From: a virus
Virus record (IMG/VR): IMGVR_UViG_3300030419_000617
Location: 1 to 29,990 of that record
DNA length: 29,990 nucleotides
Direction: 5' to 3' (one strand)
A program made the position numbers and the translations under genes. The notes beneath the pieces are model-generated. The model did not search any database. It had not been told where the DNA came from and saw only the letters and a program-made list of their open reading frames with translations. The number at the start of each line of letters is the position of its first letter. Position 1 is the stretch's first letter. Of this stretch, positions 9,555-27,381 are shown piece by piece.

Positions 9555-10223
9555 TTAGTAGTCCTTTATCATTGTTAGGATGCCTCTGTATACCATTTCT
9601 GAATCAGATTTAGCACTCACAATGTACTTGAAACAGGGAATACCATTGTCGTTCAATTTCTGCATACCACTTTTGAATGAATCATATATAGGATGATTCT
9701 CTATTTTATCATACGGATATTTGTCCTTCCAAATGTCTACTTTGTTTGCCCATATACCTACCGCTAATGGTATTTCGTGTTTTTTCTTTCTTACCTTTCT
9801 ACCATTAACATTCCAATAAGGGGCGCATATTGTATCTACTAGAAAAGTCCAACATAATTGCTGTTCAATGTCATAGTGCTTATCCATATGTCTATCATCA
9901 ATCATGAAAATAACATATTTCACATGTCGTGTTCTCAAATCTTCTGCCCATTCAGTCCAAAAAACAGTCTCACCGCCTACATCTGCGGTTTTTATTGTGT
10001 GTGCTTCTCCATCTAATTTGACATATTTTCTTGTTGCTCTTTGTCTCCCTACAGTTCTATCTACTATTGTAGGGACTTCGCCCCTAGTTTTGAGTTGATG
10101 ATGTAATGTGGTTTTACCCACTTGACTAGCACCGTAAACTCCGAAAGGTATTGCATGTAATCGTTGATATAATGCATTCAACTTTTCAAACAATAGGATG
10201 GTAAATCCTGTCATTAATGACAA
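9555..10223 (-). CDS. Arf-like small GTPase
   Basis: A 222-residue P-loop GTPase with all main G motifs in order: G1 GASQVGKT (31-38), G3 DVGGE (81-85), G4 NKVD (160-163, in WANKVD) and G5 SAK (203-205). The DVGG form of G3, the following W, and a VIFMIDDR strand (104-111) resemble the Arf/SAR/Galpha branch rather than Ras or translation GTPases. The residue that is usually the catalytic Gln after DxxG is Glu (E85). An N-terminal hydrophobic stretch (FTILLFEKLNALYQRL) could be a membrane-touching amphipathic helix, as in Arf proteins. The start is TTG at 10223, with GGTGAT three bases upstream, the same spacing as in neighbouring genes; ATG at 10214 is the alternative. Two small membrane-protein genes lie immediately upstream and a zinc-finger gene downstream. 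Its role here is unknown. Confidence 0.88.
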   Translation of the reverse strand: MSLMTGFTILLFEKLNALYQRLHAIPFGVYGASQVGKTTLHHQLKTRGEVPTIVDRTVGRQRATRKYVKLDGEAHTIKTADVGGETVFWTEWAEDLRTRHVKYVIFMIDDRHMDKHYDIEQQLCWTFLVDTICAPYWNVNGRKVRKKKHEIPLAVGIWANKVDIWKDKYPYDKIENHPIYDSFKSGMQKLNDNGIPCFKYIVSAKSDSEMVYRGILTMIKDY

Positions 10224-12005: not shown

Positions 12006-13397
12006 TCAAGCACTCTTTAGGTTGGTAATCTTTCCTTGACCCTTGAAGAAGGAGCAGCATGTTTCGCCCATTGTGCGATACATACCCTGATTCCCAAGTT
12101 TCCCAACACCGAATGGGTTTCCACTAGTGATACCATCCTCAAAGTATTGGGTTGGTGTCATAACAGATAGCCAAAGGTGGTCAGTATCTAGGATTAGCAT
12201 GTCGCTCAAAGTATTAGTTGTGTTAGAACCAGTAGAAGGCATATCCTTTGCCGGGATAATTGGTATGTCGTAGTAAGTAGCGACTCGGAAGCCGACTTCT
12301 GAACCCTTCACGCCTCTTACACCATTATGGGATGGAACAATCTCCTTCCTATCCATAAATCTCTCTTGGCTCTGTAGTAGGTCTGATAGATGCTGAATGG
12401 TGTCGTATCCAGTAATGATAACCTTCGGGTTTCCACCATTTTGCCTGATTCTGCGAATCATGTCATTTAGTAGACTTAGTGTTAGAACTCTAGCATCACC
12501 TGCTGCATATCCGTCACCAAAATCAACTTCTGCATCTAGGAACGAAGCAGTTCCAGAATAGTCGTTGCTTGAAACAGTTACAGTTCTTGACTCACCGAAA
12601 ATCTTCACCACATCATCAACTACTGCGGAGTTATCTCCGTTGTTTGCGCCAGTATCCAATAGGTTTGCGTCAGCCATAGCCGCGATTTCAGCAGCAGAAG
12701 ATACAATCTTGAATAGAGAAGTATAATTTCTCTCAATGTTTGTAGCAGTTCCATCGTCATATCGCTCTAGAGGCATGACTAGCATCTTACTCTGAACTTC
12801 TGCGTGGTGCTTACCCATATCTTCTCTAACGATAGCGCGAATATCTCCTACGCCGTCGTCAATTGCAGCCAATTCCATTCCGAGTTCCGAGAACTCAAAT
12901 AGATGTGCAATAATCTTTGGGCTAACATACAGTTTGGTGTATTCAGGAGCCATTGCTCTGAATCCATCTGCACCGCCTAGTGTTGCGTTTTCTTCTACAC
13001 CGCCAATTTGGTCGGCTCTTGGTGAACCTGCATTAGCAGATGACATTGTTGCTGTAACAGCATTTGTGCCTATTCCGAATGCAGCATCTGAACCACCAAC
13101 AGGGCGGCTCTTTAGCACTCTCCATCCACTACTGGTGTATGGTCGCTTTGCAAGCATTGCTAGAGGATTAACCTCTTGGTTTAGCATTGACCATACTTTC
13201 TGTCCGTATAGAACATTGTATAGGTCGCCCAAATTTGCAGCAGCAGTAAATGGGTTAGATGCAGCGTCGTGTGGAGTTCCGAATCCACCAACAATACCAC
13301 CTGCTTTCAGCAGTTGGTTTCCTGATGCCCCTGCAACTCCGTAAGATGCTGCTTCCAAATCTCTCATTGTTTTGATATATCCTGTGTTTTCGCTCAT
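12006..13397 (-). CDS. Major capsid protein, HK97-fold type
   Basis: A 463-residue protein directly downstream of the protease-scaffold gene, the expected place. The first 90 residues are alanine/glycine-rich, with NPFTAAANLGDLYNVLYG, then an N-arm-like region. Residues about 150-230 (MAPEYTKLYVSPKIIAHLFE, then VREDMGKHHAEVQSKML) look like the long E-loop/spine-helix segment. The stretch RIRQNGGNPKVIITGYDTIQHL (about 325-346) and later YYDIPIIPAKDM and LILDTDHLWLSV match the P-domain and A-domain pattern (n.k.i.tg...l..l; y.giPii....mp; i.ild...l). ATG at 13397 follows GGAAGTGATTAA. Its GC content and codon choice are visibly richer than the neighbours', as for a very highly expressed gene. 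No cleavage site for the protease is certain. Confidence 0.85.
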   Translation of the reverse strand: MSENTGYIKTMRDLEAASYGVAGASGNQLLKAGGIVGGFGTPHDAASNPFTAAANLGDLYNVLYGQKVWSMLNQEVNPLAMLAKRPYTSSGWRVLKSRPVGGSDAAFGIGTNAVTATMSSANAGSPRADQIGGVEENATLGGADGFRAMAPEYTKLYVSPKIIAHLFEFSELGMELAAIDDGVGDIRAIVREDMGKHHAEVQSKMLVMPLERYDDGTATNIERNYTSLFKIVSSAAEIAAMADANLLDTGANNGDNSAVVDDVVKIFGESRTVTVSSNDYSGTASFLDAEVDFGDGYAAGDARVLTLSLLNDMIRRIRQNGGNPKVIITGYDTIQHLSDLLQSQERFMDRKEIVPSHNGVRGVKGSEVGFRVATYYDIPIIPAKDMPSTGSNTTNTLSDMLILDTDHLWLSVMTPTQYFEDGITSGNPFGVGKLGNQGMYRTMGETCCSFFKGQGKITNLKSA

Positions 13398-13409: not shown

Positions 13410-14084
13410 TTAATTTCCCCTCGCTAGACTGTGAATATCCGACCACGACATGTCAGCAAGTTGCTCTGTCGTTGTAGGGAATCCTTCAGGAATTTCCATA
13501 GAAATTTCCTGTGTCTTGCGAATTTCATCATCTTTCTCAGATAGACTCTTTCGTAGTTCTGAGAATTCTTCCTTAAGTGCGGCTACTTCTCCGCGAGCAT
13601 CATACTCAGCCTTTTCAGCGTCACTCTTCTTGACGGCTAGTTCCTCTGCAAATCTCTCTCCAAAGTGAGTAGACAGATTCTCCATTGCCATCTTTTCTAG
13701 TTGTTCAGCCTTGTATTGCTCATATGCCTTCTCGATGTTTTCATTACTTAGATTCAGAGATGTGAAATCTTCGGCTGTTAGACCCTTAGCCATAGCAACC
13801 TTCAATTCAGAAGGAGTTCCAGTTGGCTTTCCACCACTAACAACTTCTTCACCAGCCTGATAGTCTCTTGTGCTGTCTTCGTCAAGAGCCATCTCAACCT
13901 TGTCATCTGTCTCTTCTGTATCCATGTATGCCTCATCACTAGCGGCTACTGTTTCCAAATCAGATTCATCTTCGCTTTCGTTCTTTGTTTCTTCATCCAA
14001 ACTTTCATCGCCTTTTTGGAACTCCTGAACCTGCTTTAACAGGTCATTCAATTCCTCAAGCGACTTTTCTAATTGTTCGCTCAT
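13410..14084 (-). CDS. Nested capsid scaffold protein (internal in-frame start)
   Basis: The 224-residue C-terminal part of the protease gene can be made alone from ATG at 14084-14082 (codon 182). A perfect GGAGG lies eight bases upstream. The product starts MSEQLEKSLEELNDLLKQ, then runs through an acidic disordered region and a long coiled coil (about residues 140-200, AALKEEFSELRKSLSEKDDE), ending MSWSDIHSLARGN. This is the architecture of lambda C/Nu3, where the scaffold is made in excess from a start inside the protease gene. The charged coiled coil would nucleate the procapsid and then be degraded by the protease. Confidence 0.65.
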   Translation of the reverse strand: MSEQLEKSLEELNDLLKQVQEFQKGDESLDEETKNESEDESDLETVAASDEAYMDTEETDDKVEMALDEDSTRDYQAGEEVVSGGKPTGTPSELKVAMAKGLTAEDFTSLNLSNENIEKAYEQYKAEQLEKMAMENLSTHFGERFAEELAVKKSDAEKAEYDARGEVAALKEEFSELRKSLSEKDDEIRKTQEISMEIPEGFPTTTEQLADMSWSDIHSLARGN

Positions 14085-14627
14085 TGTTTTTTCCTCCATT
14101 TTCAAAATGTCGAATTTCGCTTCGGGGTTTATTCCTTTTTCACATATTGTAACTTCATGTAATTCAAGTTCATCAATTTCGTTGTATTTTCCATATTCAT
14201 CTGATGTTCGTTCTTTCTTTGAAATTGCCTGTCCACCAATACTAAATGAACGGAGAGTTCCTTTTCTAATACCTCTTGAGATTTCTTTTGCCTTTTCTAT
14301 GTCATCTCGTAGTTTGATTACAACATAAAAACCAACATCGTCTACATCTGTTTTGTGTACGACTCCGTTGGAATCCCGATATTTGTCTATTACCTCCCCG
14401 ACTTGAACATTTGAATGATTTGACATTACATTTCTGTATTTTTGCTCTTTCATGTATTTCTTGACTGAATCTCTTAATGCTTCTATTGTTATCAAATCAT
14501 TTTGCTTGTCTACTATTTCTATTGATGCATACCCGCCAATAATTAATTCATCTGATTTCAATATACTAAATTCGTGTTTGTCATCTGCTTTCATTAACAG
14601 AGATTCTGTCATTAACACTTTTTCCAC
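13410..14627 (-). CDS. Prohead (U35-like) protease fused to scaffold
   Basis: A 405-residue protein. Residues 20-175 carry the herpes/HK97-type prohead protease fold: GGYASIEIVDKQNDLI (31-46), N-H71-S with VGEVI following (probable catalytic His), LRSFSIGG (125-132, probable Ser127 or Ser129), and ELHEVTICEKGINPEAKFDI (155-174), the usual end of the domain. Residues 182-405 are an acidic coiled-coil scaffold that can also be translated alone. The enzyme would cleave scaffold and capsid N-arms during maturation. The start is taken as GTG 14627, with GAGG five bases upstream; ATG at 14612 is the alternative. It lies between ligase and major capsid genes. The C-terminal MSWSDI resembles the N-terminal tag of seven upstream gene products. 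Confidence 0.85.
   Translation of the reverse strand: MEKVLMTESLLMKADDKHEFSILKSDELIIGGYASIEIVDKQNDLITIEALRDSVKKYMKEQKYRNVMSNHSNVQVGEVIDKYRDSNGVVHKTDVDDVGFYVVIKLRDDIEKAKEISRGIRKGTLRSFSIGGQAISKKERTSDEYGKYNEIDELELHEVTICEKGINPEAKFDILKMEEKTMSEQLEKSLEELNDLLKQVQEFQKGDESLDEETKNESEDESDLETVAASDEAYMDTEETDDKVEMALDEDSTRDYQAGEEVVSGGKPTGTPSELKVAMAKGLTAEDFTSLNLSNENIEKAYEQYKAEQLEKMAMENLSTHFGERFAEELAVKKSDAEKAEYDARGEVAALKEEFSELRKSLSEKDDEIRKTQEISMEIPEGFPTTTEQLADMSWSDIHSLARGN
14093..14097 (-). promoter_or_regulatory. Internal ribosome-binding site GGAGG for the nested scaffold
   Basis: On the minus strand GGAGG (14097-14093) lies eight bases before an in-frame ATG inside the protease gene. It spans codons for Met-Glu-Glu, a stretch where another choice of codons would have avoided it. 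Its strength and spacing exceed those of most gene starts in the window. Confidence 0.65.
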
Positions 14628-14648: not shown

Positions 14649-17261
14649 CTAATCGTCTTTTTCTGGTGGAAATTCTAAATGAGCGTATTTATCTTCTGTA
14701 ATATCCCATATATTTTCGTCACCTTTCATATCTAGCATCTTCTGTTTTTTGCCAGTCCATGCTAACCAACGCTTTTGTTCATCTAATGGAATTACTCTCA
14801 AATGAACTCTAGTATCGAACTTATCACCATCAATTCTATATTCGTGGTAGCCATCTTTTTGCACACCAAGAATTATTGTTCCTTTGTCTAGTGTTTTCTT
14901 TGGCTTACCTATTTTTTCTGCTACGATAGCAGGGAACTTACCTGACTTACCAAATAAGTTGTAAATGTCCTCAGTATCATCTATCTCTATAGTCCAAGCA
15001 TTTCTCTTGTCATTGACATCTATGATGAAATCTAAATTACCATCTTCCCTAAGAACAATCGTAAAATCTCCCTCTCTACTTTCCGCTTTGACTATTTTTG
15101 GCTCTATGTCCTTTTCTAATACATCTTCTCTAGCGGTGAATTTATTCGGATGATGATAAAGCAAATCTTCTTGTTTCCTTAACCAAGTCATTAATTTGCC
15201 ATCATTAGATTGGAATACATCTACGAAAGTTTCCAAATAGTGTTTCTCTACAAAATCTATAATTTTGTCAAGTGCTAATGGTTTATTTCCTCTTTCAATT
15301 ATTTCATTCTTAATTCCTATTCTCAAATCAGAACGGCGAGTTTTCATTATCTCAGTTATTTGTTCCTTCCAAACATCTATGTTGTGTAATGCATTCTTTT
15401 GCATCAATGAATCTCCTTCAAATCCATAAATGGTAAATCCATCTAAATCTTCTTTGAGAATAATCTCAGCAGTTCCGTGAATATAATCAGTAATGAAATA
15501 TCCCTTCTTTACTTTCTTCTTCTTCTTCTTAGGTTTGAAACTTAATCCACTCTCAACTTCAAACAATGTCCCAATCGCTTCTCCGGCAGTCCATCTCATG
15601 CCAGCAGCCAAAGACTTCTTTGTTTTGGATGCTAACTGTTCCAATGTTTGCAAAGTATCCGTTGATTCTACTTCAGGCAATTCAATTATCTTGGCGGAAT
15701 AAAGCGTGAACTTATCCTTTGTTTTCTTTACCTCATCAACTTTGACCCTAACTATCTTACCTGCATCAATTTTCTTTTTTGTGTTTAGAACCTTACCAAG
15801 CGGAAGATATTCCTTCTCTTCAAATTCTACAGTTTTGTAGTTCCTAGCAGTTTCAGCATTAACTGGCCCAATTCCTACAGTATACGAATGGAGTTTATTT
15901 TTTGTCTTTCTATCTGTTAGAACAATAACATCTAAATCAACAAATTTCTTCCACTTAATCCACTTCGGATTCTTCTTGTTTCCAATGTAATAAGTTGATT
16001 CTATATCCTTAATCACCACACCTTCTGAAGCAGGTAATTGCATTATTTTCTCAGCATATTTCCCAACTTCCTTAATTGAATCAGCAATTCTAGTGTCCTT
16101 CTTAGAAGGGAAGGCTAATTCTTCTGAAGAGTTTTGACTGTATTGATAGAACAAAATATTGATTCTTTCTCTAAGAGTTTCGTCTGTTATGTCCTTTCCA
16201 TCATGATTCATTATGTCGAAAACATGTGCCTTTAGTTTGCCACCTGTTTCCTTTTTGAAAATATGTTTGATTGTATCTGCCCTATGCAATGGTTCATCCC
16301 CATCGAACAACATTAACTCTCCATCTAAGATGCAATCTCCAAACTTCTTCTGTTTCAGTTTTTCAACTTGTTCAGGACATTTTTCAGTAATGTCATTATT
16401 GTTGAATGTTAAGATTTTTACTTTATTTCCAATCTTATGTAATTGTATTCTCATACCATCATACTTTTCTTGAACGACAAATTCACCACTAAGCCCCCTT
16501 ATGTCCTTCATATCTTCCAATTCAAATATTCTATACATTGGTTTGTTAGGAACTATGAAATCAATTTCAGATTTTTCTTCATCATCTGATTTTGAAATAT
16601 CTAGTTCTATTAGTGAATCCCACTTTTCATCTGTATATTGACTCAAGAATACCTTTTCTAATAGTGCATATGCACCTTTGAATTTACTCTTGATTCTTCT
16701 AGTGTCTGTGTTTTCATTTCCGTAGTGTTCGGTAATGTAAAGAGGAATGTCCTTCACTTCTAAATCTAAACCCATTGCACCCTGAGATATTTCATCAGGT
16801 TTCAAATCGTGCTTCTTCCATGCTTCTTCAGGAATAGGATTAGGATGAGAGCGTAATGCGTAATGGATAAATGCAGCAAATATAGCATCATTTTCTAGTA
16901 ATGTATCTATTACTTCATCTCCAAGTTGCTTTGAATATGGGTCACTAACTTTCTTTGACTTGAATCTCATTTCTTTTACAGATTCATAAATTTCCTTAGC
17001 GGCTAGTGATTGTGGGTCATATGCATCATCAGAAAATGCAACCTTTTCTTTTAGGTATTTTTTGAGTTCTCTAGTGAAATCATCTAGATTGTCGAACTTG
17101 TCTCTAACTTCCTTTACAGTTTTTTTCCATTTTGACCCATACTCTTTAGGGTCATCTTTAGCAGAAAGATATGCATAGCGCACACGCTCAAAGAAATCAA
17201 GAACACGCTTTGTCATCTCGTTCTTGTCTTTTTCAAACAAAAGACCGGATAACATTGCCAT
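14649..17261 (-). CDS. ATP-dependent DNA ligase with N- and C-terminal extensions
   Basis: An 870-residue protein counted from ATG 17261 (GAGG seven bases upstream; two in-frame codons earlier lies a TTG). Residue numbers here are from that TTG. Residues 1-245 are helical and of unknown role. The nucleotidyltransferase core follows: motif I EKYDG with Lys268 as the adenylated residue, FVVQ before it, DGEL (315-318), AHVFDIM (motif III, 347-353), EGVVIK (motif IV, 415-420) and KWIKWKK (motif V, 435-441). An OB-fold spans about 444-532. A lysine-rich linker (578-588) leads to a 280-residue C-terminal region. Residues 733-842 weakly resemble a LigD-type phosphoesterase domain (FIIDVNDKRNAWTI; EYRIDGDKFDTRVHLRVI) lacking its His/Arg catalytic set. 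It seals nicks in DNA. Its position among head genes rather than replication genes is odd. Confidence 0.88.
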   Translation of the reverse strand: MAMLSGLLFEKDKNEMTKRVLDFFERVRYAYLSAKDDPKEYGSKWKKTVKEVRDKFDNLDDFTRELKKYLKEKVAFSDDAYDPQSLAAKEIYESVKEMRFKSKKVSDPYSKQLGDEVIDTLLENDAIFAAFIHYALRSHPNPIPEEAWKKHDLKPDEISQGAMGLDLEVKDIPLYITEHYGNENTDTRRIKSKFKGAYALLEKVFLSQYTDEKWDSLIELDISKSDDEEKSEIDFIVPNKPMYRIFELEDMKDIRGLSGEFVVQEKYDGMRIQLHKIGNKVKILTFNNNDITEKCPEQVEKLKQKKFGDCILDGELMLFDGDEPLHRADTIKHIFKKETGGKLKAHVFDIMNHDGKDITDETLRERINILFYQYSQNSSEELAFPSKKDTRIADSIKEVGKYAEKIMQLPASEGVVIKDIESTYYIGNKKNPKWIKWKKFVDLDVIVLTDRKTKNKLHSYTVGIGPVNAETARNYKTVEFEEKEYLPLGKVLNTKKKIDAGKIVRVKVDEVKKTKDKFTLYSAKIIELPEVESTDTLQTLEQLASKTKKSLAAGMRWTAGEAIGTLFEVESGLSFKPKKKKKKVKKGYFITDYIHGTAEIILKEDLDGFTIYGFEGDSLMQKNALHNIDVWKEQITEIMKTRRSDLRIGIKNEIIERGNKPLALDKIIDFVEKHYLETFVDVFQSNDGKLMTWLRKQEDLLYHHPNKFTAREDVLEKDIEPKIVKAESREGDFTIVLREDGNLDFIIDVNDKRNAWTIEIDDTEDIYNLFGKSGKFPAIVAEKIGKPKKTLDKGTIILGVQKDGYHEYRIDGDKFDTRVHLRVIPLDEQKRWLAWTGKKQKMLDMKGDENIWDITEDKYAHLEFPPEKDD

Positions 17262-17274
17262 TAACAAACCTCAA

Positions 17275-17817: not shown

Positions 17818-18111
17818 TTAAATTGCTCCCAATAACACCTGTAATTTGTTTAATGCATTACTAGCATCATCGAATGCTCTCTGTATTTCAGGTGTTGATT
17901 GAGTGGAATCCAACTCTTCTAATTCCTGTAATTGTTCCACCATATTTCTCATGCTATCTGCAATATCACTTTCACCTAATCGGTGTGTCCCATACAGTTT
18001 CTCAACCTCTTCAGATTTTTCTTCATCGTCACTTAGAACAGCCGCCCCTACAAGTTTAGCAGCAGTACCTACTCCTTTCTCAGTATCCTTTAGTATATTT
18101 TCCCAACTCAT
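17818..18111 (-). CDS. Small MSW-tagged protein (MSWENILKD start)
   Basis: I place the start at ATG 18111-18109, where GTGATTAAG precedes it, not at the GTG at 18120 that forms part of that ribosome-binding site. The product of about 97 residues opens MSWENILKD, followed by a short alanine/glycine/valine-rich stretch (VGTAAKLVGAAVL) and then two helices rich in E, L and Q (MRNMVEQLQELEEL; FDDASNALNKLQVLLGAI). The 18 bases GTGATTAAGATGAGTTGG are identical to those at the start of the upstream gene. The body is a probable helical hairpin. No known family. It shares its N-terminus with six neighbours. Confidence 0.6.
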   Translation of the reverse strand: MSWENILKDTEKGVGTAAKLVGAAVLSDDEEKSEEVEKLYGTHRLGESDIADSMRNMVEQLQELEELDSTQSTPEIQRAFDDASNALNKLQVLLGAI

Positions 18112-18116
18112 CTTAA

Positions 18117-18506
18117 TCACTCCATGTAAAAGTCTTTTTCTTTAAGCCATTCTTTAGCACCCTGAGTTGCACCTACAGAATCAAATATATTATTTAACGA
18201 AGTCATTAGAAATGATGCGAATTTATCGGCTTGCTTATTCCAGTCTTCCTTATTATCAATCTTTTCAAATTCCATCTCCATGTTCATCAATTGCCTTAAC
18301 ATAACCATCCTAACAGGATTTTGCGGCTCAAATCTATGAATTAACTTTTGATAAACATCATTAAATACATTTTCTGCTTCCTCTGTTTTATTTGTTCCTT
18401 CAATCAAGTATTTATTGGCTTCCTTATCCCAGTCTATTTCTTGTAGTTTTCCCGCCGAAAAAGAAGGCATTTTAGGGTCTTCCTTTAGTACATCTTGCCA
18501 ACTCAT
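18117..18506 (-). CDS. Small MSW-tagged protein (MSWQDVLKE start)
   Basis: A 129-residue protein from ATG 18506-18504. The GTG at 18515 is part of the GTGATTAAG ribosome-binding site and overlaps the upstream TGA. It opens MSWQDVLKEDPKMPSFSAGK, with a short linker, then helices (NKYLIEGTNKTEEAENVF; MLRQLMNMEMEFEKID; ADKFASFLMTSLNNIFD). It ends EWLKEKDFYME. It is mostly helix, acidic and lysine-rich, without cysteine clusters or membrane segments. Function unknown. The tag, the short linker after it, and tight packing with similar genes suggest one module of interchangeable cargo-like proteins. Confidence 0.6.
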   Translation of the reverse strand: MSWQDVLKEDPKMPSFSAGKLQEIDWDKEANKYLIEGTNKTEEAENVFNDVYQKLIHRFEPQNPVRMVMLRQLMNMEMEFEKIDNKEDWNKQADKFASFLMTSLNNIFDSVGATQGAKEWLKEKDFYME

Positions 18507-18511
18507 CTTAA

Positions 18512-18781
18512 TCACTTACCTATGTCTAGCAATAACTCTCTAGTTTCTATTAAAACATCTTCAAGTTTCCTTTCTAATCCATCTATTTCCTTAGCAAACT
18601 CTTTCATTTCCATATACCTATCATCACCGTCTGGTAGTATCTCTTCTGCATAGTCGTCTAAGTTTTTAGATAATATACCTAAATCATTGAAACTAACATT
18701 AGTGTGCCAATGCTTATCAGTAAGTTGCTGAAATACAACTGGGATTGGGTAATACTTCTTTATCTCTTCTTGCCAACTCAT
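18512..18781 (-). CDS. Small MSW-tagged protein (MSWQEEIKK start)
   Basis: An 89-residue acidic protein opening MSWQEEIKKYYPIPVVFQQ, so the tag is followed directly by a folded-looking domain. The C-terminal half is a long helix (MKEFAKEIDGLERKLEDVL). ATG at 18781 follows GGGAGATAA. It ends in TGA overlapping the GTG of the next gene's ribosome-binding site. The fifth to eighth residues differ from the consensus (QEEIKK rather than QxILK), making it one of the looser copies. Function unknown. Confidence 0.58.
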   Translation of the reverse strand: MSWQEEIKKYYPIPVVFQQLTDKHWHTNVSFNDLGILSKNLDDYAEEILPDGDDRYMEMKEFAKEIDGLERKLEDVLIETRELLLDIGK

Positions 18782-19012
18782 TTATCTCCCCTCTATTTTA
18801 CTAACCAGTTTATTGATTTCATCCCATTCCATATTTCTGATTGTATCACCTGTAGGTGTCACATCATTACTCATACTAGGAGTTGGACTATCAACAACGA
18901 CAAAACCTGATTTCATCAGCATATTGTCCTTATTGTAAACTGCGCCTTCTAATGCTTTCACCTTATCTACTAATTCTTTCAGTAGCATTAACATTTCATT
19001 TTCTTCACTCAT
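18782..19012 (-). CDS. Small acidic helical protein, untagged
   Basis: A 76-residue protein from ATG 19012-19010 (MSEENEMLMLLKELVDKVKA). The first 30 residues are one leucine-rich amphipathic helix, probably a coiled coil for oligomerisation. A middle segment (SGFVVVDSPTPSMSNDVTP) is likely extended, and the end is a short helix. A TTG two codons earlier is possible. The ATG lies inside the end of the upstream gene, an eight-base overlap (ATGAGTGA). It stops exactly where the next gene's ATG begins. It lacks the MSW tag that flanks it on both sides. Function unknown. Confidence 0.55.
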   Translation of the reverse strand: MSEENEMLMLLKELVDKVKALEGAVYNKDNMLMKSGFVVVDSPTPSMSNDVTPTGDTIRNMEWDEINKLVSKIEGR

Positions 19013-19280
19013 CTTCAAAATCCTCCATAAGACTGTCTTCTAATTCACTAACACCTATTCTGTATGCTGTAGGGTCTACTTGCTGTAGTACCCATGAAGG
19101 AGAATAAGTTAGATTTCCTATCGTAATATCTCCTTGTTCATCTAACGATTCATTGAACATCTCCATAATGTCATCCTCACTATACATTTCACGAAATGCC
19201 TTTTCTTTATCGTCTTTTGCTATTACACCTAAATCTTCTGCAATATGTTGTTTCAATACTTCTTTCCAATTAGTCATCAT
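19005..19280 (-). CDS. Small acidic protein with a divergent tag (TNWKEVLKQ start)
   Basis: A 91-residue protein opening MMTNWKEVLKQHIAEDLG; the W-x-x-V-L-K core of the shared N-terminus is kept, with T-N in place of S. The remainder is acidic (EKAFREMYSEDDIMEMFNESL), with a strand-like centre (ITIGNLTYSPSWVLQQ) and an acidic C-terminus. Its ATG overlaps the previous gene's TGA (ATGA), giving coupled translation. I see no known fold. The shared short N-terminus with an otherwise unrelated body supports a detachable tag rather than gene duplication. Confidence 0.58.
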   Translation of the reverse strand: MMTNWKEVLKQHIAEDLGVIAKDDKEKAFREMYSEDDIMEMFNESLDEQGDITIGNLTYSPSWVLQQVDPTAYRIGVSELEDSLMEDFEDE

Positions 19281-19615
19281 AAATCCCCTTTCTTCTTTGG
19301 ATAAACCATCCCTCTAAGTTGCCTATAGAGAGTCTCATAGTCCTTGCGTAATTCGGCAGCAGATGAAACTATCTCCAAATTCATTTCATCAAAGTCTTCA
19401 AATTTTTTCTGCATCTTCTTATCAGATTTTATGAATTCTAGACTTTTCATCTCTTTGATTAAATCAGTCATCTTCGTTAATTCTTGACCCATGTATTCTG
19501 TAGGCTGAGATGATTGTAGAAGTTTTTTCAATTTCTTTTTCTCCTTTGGTTGTAATTTATCAAGGATAGAATTGGAAGGAGATTTATCATCCTTCAGAAT
19601 ATTTTGCCAACTCAT
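19277..19615 (-). CDS. Small MSW-tagged coiled-coil protein (MSWQNILKD start)
   Basis: A 112-residue lysine- and glutamate-rich protein opening MSWQNILKDDKSPSNSI. The tag is followed by a short serine/proline linker and then a largely helical body (KLQPKEKKKLKKLLQS; LIKEMKSLEFIKSDKKMQKK; LEIVSSAAELRKDYETLYRQL). AGGTGATGCCGT precedes the ATG at 19615, and the start overlaps the upstream stop (ATGA). The end is basic (YPKKKGDL). Function unknown. It looks like a packaged or scaffold-associated helical protein rather than an enzyme. Confidence 0.6.
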   Translation of the reverse strand: MSWQNILKDDKSPSNSILDKLQPKEKKKLKKLLQSSQPTEYMGQELTKMTDLIKEMKSLEFIKSDKKMQKKFEDFDEMNLEIVSSAAELRKDYETLYRQLRGMVYPKKKGDL

Positions 19616-21588
19616 ACGGCATCACCTAGTTCATTTTGGTTATCCGTATTCTTACCATCTTTTTTGTTGTTTTGGAATTTTCCGAGGATTTCTTTGATTT
19701 CTGCTATCTTTTCTTGTGTTGCAGTAATAACTTCTTGTGGTATTGGCTCGCCTGTTTCAGTTGCTTTTTCTTTTGCTTCTTCTGAAATTTTCTGTTCATG
19801 ATGTCGAATCAAATCCTTTAGCATTCGTTCTAATGAAAGAGGTTCTTTTACATCTTCTTCAAGTTTCTGCTGTAGTTCCTTTATTTTCTTTTCTCGGTAT
19901 CTTAGTTGTCTACGAATAGCCATTGATTCTTTAGTATCAATTTCTTTACCCGAAGTTAATCTTTCCTTTAGTTCGTTAATCTCATTTCTATAACCAGTAA
20001 TAGTACCTTTGAAATGCCTCTTGACTTCTTCTTCGTATGCTTCCATACGCTCTTTCTCTGATTTATATCGCTTAGTTCTCTTATGCGCTCCGCGTTTTCT
20101 ATTACGAGCCTTTTCTTGAGCGAGAGCATAATCTTCCGCGTTATCGTATGCGTCTATCAAATTTGGAAACTGTTTAGTTTCATCAAAATAAATTGTTACT
20201 TTGCGTCCTGATAATTTACCTTTGAGACTTCTAATTTCTTCCAATTCTCTATCATCAACAATATCTAATTTAGCAGTAATATCCATAACTTGATACATGA
20301 ATTCTAGTATCTCCATCCAACTCATTAACAAATTTGTTTTCTCTTCCTTTTCTGAATCAGACATTTTATTTCTCATATCTCTAGCATCTTCATATTCATC
20401 CATTATGTGATTACTCAATTTGTAAATTATGTTTCTATTTTTTTCTGCTCTTTCATCTTCAAACAAAAACTGATAATCTTCTATCTTATTACTATTCATT
20501 ACTTTTTGAATTTCTTCAATATCACTAGATATATCTGAAGAAAAATATTCCTTCATCTTACCTGCTGCACCTTCTCTAATTTTTGGCATAACAGTAGAAA
20601 TACCTAATTTGTTCAGTATTTCATAGAAAATATCCTTAGATGTTTTTCCTTTGTATTTCACATAGTCAGACCATTCGCCTGATTCTCTATCGAATTTTGC
20701 CCTTATAGGTATAAACAAATTCCAAATGGTTCTATCTATTTTTCCTTTATTACCATTTAGAAGTAGTTCTTGTATTGAATTAATTCTCTTTTCGGTAAAG
20801 AAACTAGTGTATTTTGCTTCCTTTGGTGGTTCTTGCAATTTTGCTATTGTATTCTTAGCAGCATCATAACCGCCTGTTCCCCAATCTCTTAACATCTTTC
20901 TTACATCGTATACTAACTTGTCAGTAGCAGTTCTAGATTCAGGCATTTGAATAGCCTGTTTCAGATATGACATTACTTTGACAACAAGTTCCATGTTATC
21001 AACTACAGATTCTAATTCCTCTATTATTCTCTGTACTTTTTTGGCCTCATCTTCCCTTTCTAAAAATCTAGCAGTTGCTTCAGGGTTTTTCAAATCTATC
21101 GTTTTGCCCTCAGTAAGTTTCAACCCCAACCGAAATGGTTCTACAATTGGAGAATCTAAGAAATTTTCTAATTTCTCTTCATCTATAACATTCAAATCAT
21201 CATCAAATGCTTCTATTCCAACATCAACAAGTTTGTCTATCTCATCATTTTTCTTTTCTATTTTCCTAATGATAGGATTAGCCTTAGCAGTCACTCTATT
21301 GATATTTCTTCGTATCTTTTCCGCGTCTTGTGTTTTGAACCAAGTTTCCGTTATTGTCTTAGTTTGCCCTCTCTTTCTTTGTGGTAGTGGAATATCAAAA
21401 TATTCACTTTCAAAGAAATTATCTTCTTCAGGCAATTCATACAATTTTGCATTCTCTACATAGTATCTATGTGCTAAATGCATATTCTTCTTAGGTAAGG
21501 CAAATCTCTCACCGGATTTTATTTCATCGAATAATGCCCAAACATCTTCATGAATTTTCGATTTTTTCAAAATATCCATGAATGACAT
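19612..21588 (-). CDS. Large tagged helical protein (MSFMDILKK start), 658 residues, unknown function
   Basis: It opens MSFMDILKKSKIHEDVWALF, a variant of the shared tag with F for W. The rest is almost entirely charged helix. There is a helical domain from about 90 to 215 with coiled-coil character (INRVTAKANPIIRKIEKKND; AKKVQRIIEELESVVDNMEL), and a middle region with RINSIQELLLNGNKGKIDRT. A long basic coiled coil lies near 490-590 (KARNRKRGAHKRTKRYKSEK), rich in R and K, that could bind DNA. A helical C-terminus has PIPQEVITATQEKIAEIKEI. GGAAGTGATTG precedes ATG 21588. No nuclease, ATPase or membrane motif is seen. A head-internal or scaffold-core protein fits the tag, length and position, but this is inference. 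Confidence 0.6.
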   Translation of the reverse strand: MSFMDILKKSKIHEDVWALFDEIKSGERFALPKKNMHLAHRYYVENAKLYELPEEDNFFESEYFDIPLPQRKRGQTKTITETWFKTQDAEKIRRNINRVTAKANPIIRKIEKKNDEIDKLVDVGIEAFDDDLNVIDEEKLENFLDSPIVEPFRLGLKLTEGKTIDLKNPEATARFLEREDEAKKVQRIIEELESVVDNMELVVKVMSYLKQAIQMPESRTATDKLVYDVRKMLRDWGTGGYDAAKNTIAKLQEPPKEAKYTSFFTEKRINSIQELLLNGNKGKIDRTIWNLFIPIRAKFDRESGEWSDYVKYKGKTSKDIFYEILNKLGISTVMPKIREGAAGKMKEYFSSDISSDIEEIQKVMNSNKIEDYQFLFEDERAEKNRNIIYKLSNHIMDEYEDARDMRNKMSDSEKEEKTNLLMSWMEILEFMYQVMDITAKLDIVDDRELEEIRSLKGKLSGRKVTIYFDETKQFPNLIDAYDNAEDYALAQEKARNRKRGAHKRTKRYKSEKERMEAYEEEVKRHFKGTITGYRNEINELKERLTSGKEIDTKESMAIRRQLRYREKKIKELQQKLEEDVKEPLSLERMLKDLIRHHEQKISEEAKEKATETGEPIPQEVITATQEKIAEIKEILGKFQNNKKDGKNTDNQNELGDAV

Positions 21589-21600
21589 TCAATCACTTCC

Positions 21601-21828
21601 TCAAAATGGTATGTTTTCCTTTCCTTTCTTATGCTTCTTAGGTAGTAAGATTGCATCAGGAATATCGGATGCGCCGGGAATCTTCTTCTCAACGGTTGTC
21701 GTTGGGTCTGTTCCCGCTACAGAATAATCACGATTCTTTGTAATGTTGTCATCGTGTGTCTGCTTTTCTCTTATCCTTGCTTCCTTTAGTTCTCTTTCTA
21801 ACTGTCTTACGCCTTTCTTTTCACTCAT
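21601..21828 (-). CDS. Small basic protein, untagged, unknown function
   Basis: I prefer ATG 21828-21826, since AAGGTGAAAAA lies just before it; the longer frame from ATG 21846 would overlap the upstream TGA and add six residues. The 75-residue product starts MSEKKGVRQLERELKEARIR, a charged helix, then an extended stretch (DYSVAGTDPTTTVEKKIPGA), and ends in a lysine-rich tail (LLPKKHKKGKENIPF). It may be an unstructured nucleic-acid- or capsid-binding peptide. No known family. It sits between two tagged genes. Confidence 0.5.
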   Translation of the reverse strand: MSEKKGVRQLERELKEARIREKQTHDDNITKNRDYSVAGTDPTTTVEKKIPGASDIPDAILLPKKHKKGKENIPF

Positions 21829-21842
21829 TTTTTCACCTTCTT

Positions 21843-22367
21843 TCATAATGTTGATTGTATACTTATTAGTTCTTGTAGTGAACCTCGCTGATTTTTTATG
21901 TGTTCATCTAAATCATCTAATTCTTTGCGTTTCTGTTCCAATCTTGCTTTCGCTTCATTTATTTTGATTTCTTGTCTTTTGACTTCTTCTTTATTACTAT
22001 CATTATCTTGAATATTAGAAATGTACTCACCCATCTGCACAATTAAATTTTGTTCATTGTTCGTATCTCTTGCCATTGCATCTAGTAGTTTTTCTTTGGA
22101 CTCTATGTATGTATTTCCATTATCTATTTCTTCTTGAATTTTAGTGCCTATGTTTTGCATACTAATATCCTCGCTTAATTTATCTGCTTCTTCTTGACCA
22201 TAAGTAGTGATTAACCATTCATGTAATGTTGTTAATGGTGCAGAAAAACTCTCAAACTTATCTTCAAACTCCCTTACATCTGTAGTGTTTGGTTCTTTAG
22301 GTACTCCTGTAATTCCATAGTGAGATTCCTTCCAATCATCTACTTTCAGAATTTCAAACCAACTCAT
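21843..22367 (-). CDS. MSW-tagged coiled-coil protein (MSWFEILKV start)
   Basis: A 174-residue protein, the first tagged gene after the portal. It opens MSWFEILKVDDWKESHYGI, followed by an acidic linker and a helical body. Residues about 95-174 form a long coiled coil (NIQDNDSNKEEVKRQEIKIN; EARLEQ-type heptads; KELDDLDEHIKNQRGSLQEL). ATG 22367 lies three bases after the portal stop, with GGAGAGTAGG upstream inside the end of the portal gene. The coiled coil next to the portal could suit a portal-nucleated scaffold core or an internal protein. Function is not known. Confidence 0.6.
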   Translation of the reverse strand: MSWFEILKVDDWKESHYGITGVPKEPNTTDVREFEDKFESFSAPLTTLHEWLITTYGQEEADKLSEDISMQNIGTKIQEEIDNGNTYIESKEKLLDAMARDTNNEQNLIVQMGEYISNIQDNDSNKEEVKRQEIKINEAKARLEQKRKELDDLDEHIKNQRGSLQELISIQSTL

Positions 22368-22368
22368 C

Positions 22369-24015
22369 TCAGCCTACTCTCCTTTCTGTTCTTTTGTCTA
22401 CATTCTCATTGCCAGCATCTTTCGGCAATCCACTAAATCTCTTATCCGGCCCTACTGAACTACGCGATTTATTTCTTGTAGCGGGTGGATTTTCTTGTGC
22501 GCCTGAACCAGCAGCCATCATTTGTTCTTGCATTTGACCCATTTGACTAGCATCTATGTTTGTGCCAGCATAGGGGTCTGTTTCAATTTGACCGTCACCT
22601 TCTTCCTTTGGCCCTTGTGCTTCAGGTTCAGGTGGTGGCTTTTCATAACTGAATCTACCTTCATCATCCATCTCTATTTCAAATCCTAGATTCTTAATTG
22701 AAGCAGCAATATTAACTTCTATCTCTCTCTTACGAAGTGTAGCAACTTCATCTTCTTCTTCAGATGGTGGGAGTTTTAGTTGCCAATCTGTAATGCCAAA
22801 TTCCTTAGTGACGAATGGAAATACATAGTTATTCCAAATTGTTTGAGCCATTTCAACTGCTCGGTTAGTAACTAGAACTTGCATACCCTCATTATTCAAT
22901 CCACCACTAGCAGAGTTATCTGCCATGAAAATCTTAGATACACCATAGAATGCTGAAATCCTATCTCGCAAATCATCCTTAACCTGAATATAATCCATTT
23001 CTTTCAGGCTATCCATGAACTTAACCCATTCAACAGAACCCTTACCACTTTCTGCTTCAATTCCCATTACTGGAATAAAGTGTGGGTCTGCTTCCATCTT
23101 CTCTTTGACACCACGCCAAAAGGATTTCATTGATTCCATATTGCGAGTTTGAACAGCAAGTAAACCTCTAGGCATACGCGCCTTAGTGTATGATGAATTC
23201 ACATAATTTTCCATAGCCAGTAATGTTGTTACATTACTCCAAAGAGTAATTATTGGTGATAATCCATACAATCTACCGGGAGAATATTTACTGAAATGAA
23301 GCACTTCCCCCTTGATGAAATACTGCTCAACTCCATTTACTCTATTTACATAGTGAACAGGATACAATTCTGAATTGCACAATTCACACATGTCTGTTGG
23401 GCTAGTAGATATATGATTTCTATGCTTCAAACAGGTGTATCCTTCTACGCCTCTTTCACCTAGTTCGTTAGAATAAATGTGCATAGTCACAGGGTCGCCT
23501 CTGTATACTTCTTTGATTCGATGCATCTTAATCTCAGCATCGTTATCCAAGAAATATTCCTTAACAAGAACAAAGTATGCATCATCCATGATATTCAAGT
23601 CATCTTCTAATTCCTTCAAAACATCAATGAACATCTGCTCAGACTTATTCACATATCCATCCATGAACCTATGTGCATAATCCAATTGTTTAGTATCAGG
23701 TTTACTTAAATTAGGTGAACCACATTCTATACATTCTTTCGTTGGAGAACTATGTTCTTTACAACAATCATCACATTTCACCACGAATTTTTCTTCCCAA
23801 AAATATCCCCGTCTAAATATCTCTTGTTTCAACTGTGTTATACATGTGCGTACAATCGTAGATTGTTGTGCAATGTGATATATCACAGGGGAAGTAAGAA
23901 GATACGAAGTATCCTTCTCTTGTATTCCCGGTGTGAAAACCGTCCTATCTTGGGGCTTGGGAGTTGTCTGCCTAAACAGATTTCTTATCGAAAATCTGCG
24001 TTTTTCCTCTACCAT
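22369..24015 (-). CDS. Portal protein with two zinc-ribbon-like insertions
   Basis: A 548-residue portal, the dodecameric ring through which DNA enters and leaves the head. The family pattern is visible: an N-terminal region with TSPVIYHIAQQSTIVRTCI, a wing region, then GEVLHFSKYSPGRLYGLSPI (237-256), the long stem/crown helices (LAMENYVNSSYTKARMPRG) and DDLRDRISAFYGVSKIFMAD (about 340-360) with NNEGMQVLVTNRAVEMAQ. Two metal-binding clusters interrupt the N-terminal half: C81-x2-C84 with C95-x2-C98, and C195-x2-H198 with C210-x2-C213. The last 100 residues are disordered and rich in P, Q, M and G. ATG 24015 follows GAGGAATGATATT. It lies downstream of terminase with an endonuclease gene between. 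Confidence 0.85.
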   Translation of the reverse strand: MVEEKRRFSIRNLFRQTTPKPQDRTVFTPGIQEKDTSYLLTSPVIYHIAQQSTIVRTCITQLKQEIFRRGYFWEEKFVVKCDDCCKEHSSPTKECIECGSPNLSKPDTKQLDYAHRFMDGYVNKSEQMFIDVLKELEDDLNIMDDAYFVLVKEYFLDNDAEIKMHRIKEVYRGDPVTMHIYSNELGERGVEGYTCLKHRNHISTSPTDMCELCNSELYPVHYVNRVNGVEQYFIKGEVLHFSKYSPGRLYGLSPIITLWSNVTTLLAMENYVNSSYTKARMPRGLLAVQTRNMESMKSFWRGVKEKMEADPHFIPVMGIEAESGKGSVEWVKFMDSLKEMDYIQVKDDLRDRISAFYGVSKIFMADNSASGGLNNEGMQVLVTNRAVEMAQTIWNNYVFPFVTKEFGITDWQLKLPPSEEEDEVATLRKREIEVNIAASIKNLGFEIEMDDEGRFSYEKPPPEPEAQGPKEEGDGQIETDPYAGTNIDASQMGQMQEQMMAAGSGAQENPPATRNKSRSSVGPDKRFSGLPKDAGNENVDKRTERRVG

Positions 24016-24019
24016 AATA

Positions 24020-25399
24020 TCATTCCTCTATTTCTTCCAAAGGCTGTCTCTTGATGACACCTTCGATTTTATCCATTTCATTCATTTTGCAATTATCATA
24101 CAGTTTTTCAACCGTATCTATGTTTATATCATATTGAGAGAAGTCATAACCAACATGGTCTTTGTGATTTTCAAACTTCATCAATTTGAATAATTCTTCT
24201 TTTCTAGCAGTATACCATTCTTCCTTCTTGTGGGATTTCTTCATCCTTATAAGTTCCAATAGAATATCCGCATTCTTCTTTTTCATTTTCAAGAATGGCC
24301 TACACTTTGTTAGAAGTTCAGTCACATCATTACCTGAATAAAAATTCAGTCTATTGACAGGTCTAGTATCCTGTGGAGATTTTTGGTCAAGATGTAGTCT
24401 TCCGCAACCAAGTGATTTATGCATCTCAATCATGAACGCCTTACCTCTATCACCAGTAGCCACCAACCCAACTCTAGGATTAAATTTCTTATCCATTGTA
24501 ATGTAGCCATCTGAATCAATAAATGCAGCAGTATAAGCATAAATGTCCTTCTTAATGTCATCATCAAATTTGTAGAAAGAACCATCTACAGAAGTGATAT
24601 TGTTTCCAATCGCCATCTTTGAGATTATACTAGGTGTAGTCTTCTTGAACAAATTCTTAGGTAGTCTCTCATGTATTTGCCTCGATGAAATACCGGGTTC
24701 TTCACATACTGATTTCAAAATATGATGTTTGATAATTTCCTTGTTTCCAGTATTTGCCATATATTTCTTGAGTATTCCCTTGAAACCACGCTTACTAGAT
24801 TTCATTTCTTTACTTAACCTAGAGTATTCAGGCCCATAAGATAAATCATTCCTGTCTAGTTTGGCTTCCCAATACTTACACAATTCATCTATGACACTTC
24901 TCCTAACATCTTCTTCATGAATGTATGATAATTTGATAATATCACTTTCATTACATGTCATGTCATTTAATGGTGATTTGTATTTTGAAATCCAGTAAAT
25001 GCTGTCAATGCTCTTACTTAGATGCTCAGAATATGAGTTAATCAGATTGTCTATTGATTTAGTGACTAGTTCTTTCTTTTCGCCTTTGAGCGTCCTACGA
25101 TGCTTCTTCAATTCCTTGATTAATTTAGGAATGTCCTTATTTTCAACTTCGTACTTTTTCAAATTAGGATTAAGCATCTTCTTTGCATCTGTAAGAGAAA
25201 TCCTGTGCTTTTCAGCATAATTCTTCTCTACTTCAAAATGACTCGATATTCTATGGTCTTCTAACCATGATTTTCTTGCTTGCATATCATTGATTTTTTG
25301 ACGCTGTGCTTCTTCCATCTCTTCTATTTCTCTAGCATCATCTGCAAGTTCATCGAGTTTATCGCTATCCAATTCATCAGGTTGATTCTCGATTACCAT
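24020..25399 (-). CDS. Free-standing LAGLIDADG homing endonuclease with helical and winged-helix domains
   Basis: A 459-residue protein. Residues 1-50 are an acidic coiled coil. Residues 60-215 are lysine-rich helices. Residues about 218-278 (IIKHHILKSVCEEPGISSRQ, then SVDGSFYKFDDD) read as a winged helix-turn-helix. Residues 286-385 carry a single LAGLIDADG-type motif, AAFIDSDGYI, then a strand and helix pair (GLVATGDRGKAFMIEMHKSL; LNFYSGNDVTELLTKCRPFL). One motif implies a homodimer. The enzyme would cut a long specific DNA site and spread its own gene. ATG 25399 follows AGGTGGTATC. It sits precisely between terminase and portal genes with no flanking intron or intein signs, so it is probably an intergenic (intronless) homing gene. 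Confidence 0.78.
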   Translation of the reverse strand: MVIENQPDELDSDKLDELADDAREIEEMEEAQRQKINDMQARKSWLEDHRISSHFEVEKNYAEKHRISLTDAKKMLNPNLKKYEVENKDIPKLIKELKKHRRTLKGEKKELVTKSIDNLINSYSEHLSKSIDSIYWISKYKSPLNDMTCNESDIIKLSYIHEEDVRRSVIDELCKYWEAKLDRNDLSYGPEYSRLSKEMKSSKRGFKGILKKYMANTGNKEIIKHHILKSVCEEPGISSRQIHERLPKNLFKKTTPSIISKMAIGNNITSVDGSFYKFDDDIKKDIYAYTAAFIDSDGYITMDKKFNPRVGLVATGDRGKAFMIEMHKSLGCGRLHLDQKSPQDTRPVNRLNFYSGNDVTELLTKCRPFLKMKKKNADILLELIRMKKSHKKEEWYTARKEELFKLMKFENHKDHVGYDFSQYDINIDTVEKLYDNCKMNEMDKIEGVIKRQPLEEIEE

Positions 25400-26841: not shown

Positions 26842-27381
26842 TTAATCGCCCCGCTTCAACATTGCAAACCATTTTGCAACCCCCCAATCATCCACATTAT
26901 CTAGATGTTTTATTCTCTCATTCATGAAAGCCAATACATCATCAGGAATAACCTCATGAGTTTCAGGCTTATCCAATTGAAGTCCTGATTTTCTACGCAT
27001 GGTAGAAAACCCTGCAATTCTTGGCATTCCCTCTATCGGTTCTAATGCCTTTGCTCTCACTTCTCTGAAAACCCCACCTCCACGATAATCAGGGTGCGTT
27101 TTAGCACCACCAAAATAAGCGTATGGCTGACCATCTTTACCTGTTCTCACGGCATTACCAACTACTGAAACTAATCTGCTTTTCTTACCCTCTCTTCGTA
27201 TGTGACCAAACCAACTTTCTACAGGATATTTCCACCTATCATTAGAACGCATTTCATGAGGCATGTCAGGATTACTGGCATCCCACAGTTCTTTCATCTG
27301 TGCTTCATCACCGATTTGAACAGTAATAGCATCCTTGCCCTGAGATAACGCTCTCAAATCAGGATGAAATTTACGAATCAT
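26842..27381 (-). CDS. GNAT-fold acetyltransferase-like protein
   Basis: A 179-residue protein with a recognisable acetyl-CoA-binding motif A: a strand AYFGGAKTHPDYR (88-100) followed by GGGVF and a helix REVRAKALE (106-114), matching the v.PdyRg.G.g..l pattern of GNAT enzymes. The preceding VVGNAVRTGKDGQPYAYF gives the usual beta hairpin. The C-terminal third is helical and less typical, and the usual end of the fold is not clear, so substrate is unknown and activity is not certain. ATG 27381 is preceded by AGGTGATTAT. Its TAA abuts the TTG start of terL. Possible roles are modification of host or viral proteins or of DNA-packaging components; none is shown. Confidence 0.65.
   Translation of the reverse strand: MIRKFHPDLRALSQGKDAITVQIGDEAQMKELWDASNPDMPHEMRSNDRWKYPVESWFGHIRREGKKSRLVSVVGNAVRTGKDGQPYAYFGGAKTHPDYRGGGVFREVRAKALEPIEGMPRIAGFSTMRRKSGLQLDKPETHEVIPDDVLAFMNERIKHLDNVDDWGVAKWFAMLKRGD

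Follow-up and report, generated by a model that had tools for sequence, protein, structure and literature searches.

A short motif at the termini of head-module proteins in magrovirus-type viruses, a likely capsid-loading signal

In encapsulins, a short terminal cargo-loading peptide docks cargo on a shell with the HK97 fold, and in bacteriophage T4 the capsid-targeting sequence (CTS) is a peptide of the MKTYQEFI type. The internal proteins of T4 are a diverse set whose sole common part is this conserved CTS (PMC3012670), and passages of two papers describe T4 head cargo as acting in counter-defence (PMC3012670, PMC7411985). According to passages of the second paper, the C-terminal propeptide of the SPN3US prohead protease has been proposed to target the protease into the prohead, and ejected head proteins of SPN3US and phiKZ-like phages carry N-terminal propeptides (PMC7411985). 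These propeptides are 64 to 130 residues long and are removed at a T4-like site, and the same passages report no common short motif among them, whereas the viruses described here use one 8-residue motif at both ends of proteins.

The motif was examined in a 29,990-base virus record (IMG/VR IMGVR_UViG_3300030419_000617; "the window" denotes this whole stretch), which we assign to a magrovirus-type tailed virus on the basis of its gene content, its marine relatives and the genome size of those relatives. Its gene set matches that of magroviruses, viruses of marine group II archaea that are reported to be among the most abundant in the ocean (PMC10160649): both have a halovirus-like major capsid protein (MCP), an ATP-dependent DNA ligase and a marine distribution, and the genomes of relatives measure 73-102 kb against a magrovirus expectation of ~90 kb. 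The host is presumed to belong to the marine group II archaea (Poseidoniales). A host check through GTDB yielded only four magrovirus contigs (L242-L245), which were placed in Maricaulis and Altibacter MAGs, most likely by mis-binning.

Late genes lie on the minus strand in the order terminase large subunit (TerL), portal, tagged block, ligase, S78 prohead protease and MCP. The portal protein (22369..24015, minus strand; Pfam Phage_portal, 4e-9) served as bait to gather 97 relatives in IMG/VR; the tag counts below cover 80 relatives and also drew on 8 near-complete genomes. The MCP (12006..13397, minus strand; Pfam SU10_MCP) is similar to that of halovirus HVTV-1 and is a candidate receptor for the motif. 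Between terminase and portal, most relatives retain a 459-aa gene (24020-25399, minus strand; a 72-member cluster) whose C-terminal domain is homing-endonuclease/HNH-like (PHROG 5046, E 8e-6); selfish elements are seldom so widely fixed. A 222-aa protein (9555-10223, minus strand) encoded downstream of the capsid gene has weak small-GTPase matches (SRPRB/Arf/Ras, best E 4e-4). One record of 184,733 bases (G036, the record of locus L144) is twice the usual length and has a magrovirus capsid gene at two places, 70457-71803 and 161908-163248; it represents either two joined genomes or an assembly artefact.

An earlier note on this DNA had claimed that seven neighbouring products at 17818-22367 share a short N-terminal tag on otherwise unrelated bodies, and both parts of that claim held. 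All seven minus-strand ORFs are present with the N-termini it described, four of which fit M-S-W-x-x-[IV]-L-K exactly, the other three being variants (F for W; a one-residue offset; EEIK). The block, all on the minus strand, encodes a 174-aa protein (21843..22367; MSWFEILK at 22344-22367), a helical 658-aa protein (19612..21588; MSFMDILK at 21565-21588), a 112-aa protein (19277..19615; MSWQNILK at 19592-19615), a 90-aa protein matching PHROG 9294, of unknown function (19005..19277; MTNWKEVLK at 19251-19277), an 89-aa protein (18512..18781; variant tag MSWQEEIK at 18758-18781), a 129-aa protein (18117..18506; MSWQDVLK at 18483-18506) and a 97-aa protein (17818..18111; MSWENILK at 18088-18111). 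Minus their first 10 residues, the seven proteins showed no mutual similarity (best blastp E value 0.25), and neither full-length homology nor simple gene duplication was found among them. The block does lie between portal and protease, as had been stated, but not exactly: a 176-aa gene and the gene for the ligase separate it from the protease, and two ORFs without the N-tag (21601-21846 and 18782-19018) are interspersed within it. The ligase itself (872 aa; 14649-17267, minus strand; Pfam, 5e-29) has long N- and C-terminal extensions, on which, as on the rest of the protein, the tag was not found, and its gene adjoins that of the protease within the head module in nearly all relatives.

A start of the form M[ST][FW]xx[IV]L[KRT] is present in 18/18 members of the family of the 658-aa protein; in the AF2 model of this protein, which is of low confidence, residues 1-31 have pLDDT <50. 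Most relatives encode an orthologue of the 112-aa protein, the tag being degenerate in some of them. A PHROG assignment of the 174-aa protein as "head maturation protease" was not trusted, the match falling in a helical, coiled-coil-like stretch. Foldseek searches of the PDB with the 658-aa and protease models, both of low confidence, returned nothing below E 0.1. Tandem tagged paralogues occur in two relatives. About nine tagged genes stand in tandem at L148 (1091-7969), the last encoding 806 aa; seven or more share (W/F)xxILKNIQIxxQxT, which suggests amplification of one cargo type. At L174 (2542-5082), four genes in succession encode paralogues of 183-245 aa, each tagged or nearly so, that have a lysine-rich KKPKKIE stretch in common.

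Across the relatives and near-complete genomes counted, the N-tag occurs on 339 distinct proteins that represent 151 unrelated body families, 110 of them singletons; further loci added about 109 tagged families (≥120 aa). Across 81 loci the strict motif [ST]W..[ILV][ILV][KR] occurred 261 times, and 242 of these occurrences lay among the 15 N-terminal residues of a protein. As with the carriers of the T4 CTS, the genes for tagged proteins belong with those for head assembly: the 8 near-whole genomes carry the tag on 66 of 523 late-strand genes and on 1 of 467 opposite-strand genes, and it is not widespread in early genes. This strand bias, together with the N-terminal placement, argues against chance. 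Each near-whole genome has 6-10 tagged genes, almost all of which lie between about -18 kb and +6 kb relative to the portal start. They form two clusters, one running from portal to protease and another, absent from the earlier note, upstream of the terminase gene. The downstream tail module, on the same strand, is nearly devoid of the tag, which is thus no general feature of late genes. Ten of 71 portal-protease blocks lack the strict N-tag.

A strict DNA pattern search of IMG/VR yielded at least 120 stretches, and 38 of the 50 pattern-matched records tested encode a magrovirus MCP. At least four pattern loci (L145, L175, L192 and L199) appear to be accidental hits in phages unrelated to these viruses. 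In HVTV-1, the motif was not found at the ends of the protease or of its small neighbour, and the neighbouring genes are without N-tags; near the MCP of Methanofastidiosa virus vir519 the motif was likewise not found. Our search of the literature found neither this motif under a name nor a capsid-targeting tag in an archaeal virus.

A tag profile was derived from one representative per family (n=151). Its consensus is M-[ST]-W-x-x-[IV]-[LI]-K, with S/T/N at position 2 and two variable positions occupied by E/Q/K and then D/N. The tryptophan is present in 148 and the lysine in 147 of the representatives, with I/V and L/I/V between. Past position 8 no residue is conserved among the 151, so a cut just after the tag, which the earlier note expected, is unsupported. 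Identity within families is 67% over the tag, 39% over the next seven residues and 32% over residues 9-40. All six leucine and all three isoleucine codons are in use within the tag, which places selection at the level of the peptide, and the lysine codons vary too. AGT is the codon of Ser2 in 90 of the 94 tag representatives. Among untagged genes that begin MS the corresponding figure is 61 of 104, and a protein-level model cannot fully explain the bias. The AGT bias would fit a tag that acts at the nucleic-acid or translation level in late operons, or that marks a recombination seam for gene swaps, with a peptide that has no binding function; so would the small size, exchangeability and operon packing of tagged genes. 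We consider this very improbable given the free variation of the Leu, Ile and Lys codons, the occurrence of the motif at C-termini and the late tail genes without it.

These C-terminal motifs, missed by the earlier note, are carried by the prohead protease and by a ~78-aa coiled-coil protein. The protease (13410..14627, minus strand; Pfam Peptidase_S78) has a helical C-terminal region ending in MSWSDIHSLARGN (13413-13451). The small protein (18782..19018, minus strand), a probable scaffold or core component encoded in the middle of the tagged block, ends in the motif MEWDEINKLVSKIEGR (18785-18832). The sequence M-[SDEN]-W-x-[DE]-[IL]-[HN]-x-[LMIV], or a close variant, terminates the protease in 68/68 homologues, and the same C-terminal motif is found in 70/71 homologues of the ~78-aa protein. 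In the protease, the motif tryptophan is invariant in 36 aligned sequences (alignment A3), and the predicted model places the motif in a separate C-terminal helix (pLDDT ~75). When the two proteins were compared by hhalign, the last ~26 columns alone matched (probability 96%, E 1.6e-9), and the probability was 0.5% once the motif had been removed. Paralogy between the ~78-aa protein and the scaffold region of the protease was therefore rejected; since nothing is shared beyond the last stretch, it is the motif, and not common descent, that links the two.

A position-specific scoring matrix (PSSM) built only from N-tags and scanned away from N-termini recovered C-termini, which account for 30 of 31 hits in the cluster comprising the protease and the ~78-aa protein (cluster 0), for 12 of 12 in an upstream family of 240-400 residues (cluster 25) and for 19 of 33 in cluster 3. 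The same scan gave a weaker C-terminal match, AKWFAMLKRGD (26845-26877), on the 179-aa protein directly upstream of TerL (26842..27381, minus strand). The N- and C-terminal forms agree at W, at +2 (D/N/E) and at +3 (I/V/L). At +4/+5 the former has LK and the latter [HN]x, and the binding of the two may accordingly not be identical. Relatives whose MCP is 44-45% identical keep the C-terminal motif on the protease and the small protein, and their portal-protease block is without N-tags. This comparison suggests that the C-terminal motif may be the older, core assembly contact and that the N-tags imitate it, an order that we infer.

The carriers of the C-terminal motif bear on two other readings of its role. 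The protease, the probable scaffold and, more weakly, the protein encoded before TerL are assembly proteins and not delivered cargo, as would be expected of a head-assembly docking peptide (for example, for the portal or capsid protein) most of whose carriers are transient assembly factors or packaging regulators, neither kept nor injected. We regard this as unlikely: more than 150 families, the 110 singletons and the tagged tRNA-repair enzymes described below are easier to reconcile with cargo that is delivered and evolves fast than with conserved assembly factors. A partner other than the procapsid is also conceivable for an amphipathic W-x-x-I-L-K peptide, which could gather proteins at a membrane, at a viral assembly compartment or on a host factor. 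The presence of the motif on the prohead protease, which must act within the procapsid, and the clustering of tagged genes with those for portal and terminase make such a partner a decidedly unlikely one.

Most tagged proteins had no match in Pfam or PHROGs. Three neighbouring genes in one relative (L074, 1061-3201), all tagged, encode tRNA-repair enzymes: a cyclic phosphodiesterase (MWFDLLK; PF08302, E 1e-8), a HAD phosphatase of the RNA-repair type (MSWMDILK; PF10307, E 2e-12; PHROG 415, polynucleotide kinase) and a class II CCA-adding enzyme (MSWMDILK; PF01743, E 7e-16). A second relative (L176) encodes a CCA-adding enzyme (6429-7679, minus strand) with the motif at both ends, and its record also holds a PF08302 match. 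In a class II CCA-adding enzyme, both the N-tag (residues 1-8) and a C-terminal WKSILRR lie outside residues 21-397, to which homology with solved enzymes is limited; the tags are thus additions to a known fold. The class II type was found in 10 bacterial control genomes. Single members of the larger tagged set match pentapeptide repeats and the HsdM N-terminal domain. The tagged tRNA-repair enzymes of the two relatives suggest, from their sequences, that counter-defence proteins may be injected, and repair of cut tRNAs on entry would be a plausible form of counter-defence.

Together, the results favor, with a probability of roughly three in four, a short linear docking motif by which proteins would enter the magrovirus-type procapsid, so that cargo would be enclosed and delivered with the DNA. 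A modular capsid-loading tag like the T4 CTS, as the earlier note had proposed, is the best explanation of what is observed, namely the motif itself, its positions, its modularity on more than 150 unrelated bodies, its conservation at the protein level, its confinement to the head and packaging region and its C-terminal occurrences. The proposal is partly supported overall, and for the capsid-loading tag itself these observations are strong independent support. The motif is well supported, and its role as an encapsidation signal appears likely; encapsidation, a receptor, injection and any proteolytic removal are what we infer from it. The docking motif would probably form a small amphipathic helix, and its oldest users would be the prohead protease and the small coiled-coil probable scaffold, at their C-termini. 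Other late proteins, with the motif at the N-terminus and in some cases at the C-terminus or both, would engage the same binding site, candidates for which are the major capsid protein, the scaffold core and the portal; the C-terminal motif common to protease and probable scaffold indirectly favors binding to the scaffold core or capsid. The protease must be enclosed, and cargo with an N-terminal motif would be enclosed through the same contact and then delivered with the DNA into the host, where at least part of it, such as the tRNA-repair set, might serve as early counter-defence or host take-over machinery. A more specific proposal is that one address code, usable at either terminus and common to the protease, the scaffold and over 250 families of cargo, loads an injected proteome that changes rapidly. 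Among its members would be a tRNA-repair kit carried in the virion (2',3'-cyclic phosphodiesterase, HAD phosphatase and CCA-adding enzyme), which would mend tRNAs cut by host defence at entry; we judge this about equally apt to prove right or wrong.

With the T4 CTS of IPI-III and Alt, the magrovirus tag has in common that it is a short N-terminal peptide on otherwise diverse proteins linked to head assembly. The two sequences look unrelated (MKTYQEFI type versus MSWxxILK). The magrovirus system differs further in its far larger number of tagged families, in the additional C-terminal motif on protease and probable scaffold, in the lack of a visible conserved cleavage site and in belonging to archaeal viruses. 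As judged from these comparisons, the tag would work like the T4 CTS yet cannot be filed as a member of that class. Encapsulins, by general description, are not viruses with a portal and DNA, and their peptides are usually C-terminal and unrelated in sequence to the tag. What is new relative to the T4 principle is that both termini are used, that protease and probable scaffold have the motif in common, that the scale is so large and that the viruses are archaeal.

For most magrovirus proteins no function is known. Should the tag prove to be an encapsidation signal, its eight residues would identify more than 250 families as virion-internal and probably injected, which would provide a direct handle on host take-over by an uncultured archaeal virus. 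The T4 principle would then also hold for archaeal viruses, through a motif common to cargo, protease and probable scaffold, and the peptide would offer a means of loading capsids of this kind with foreign proteins.
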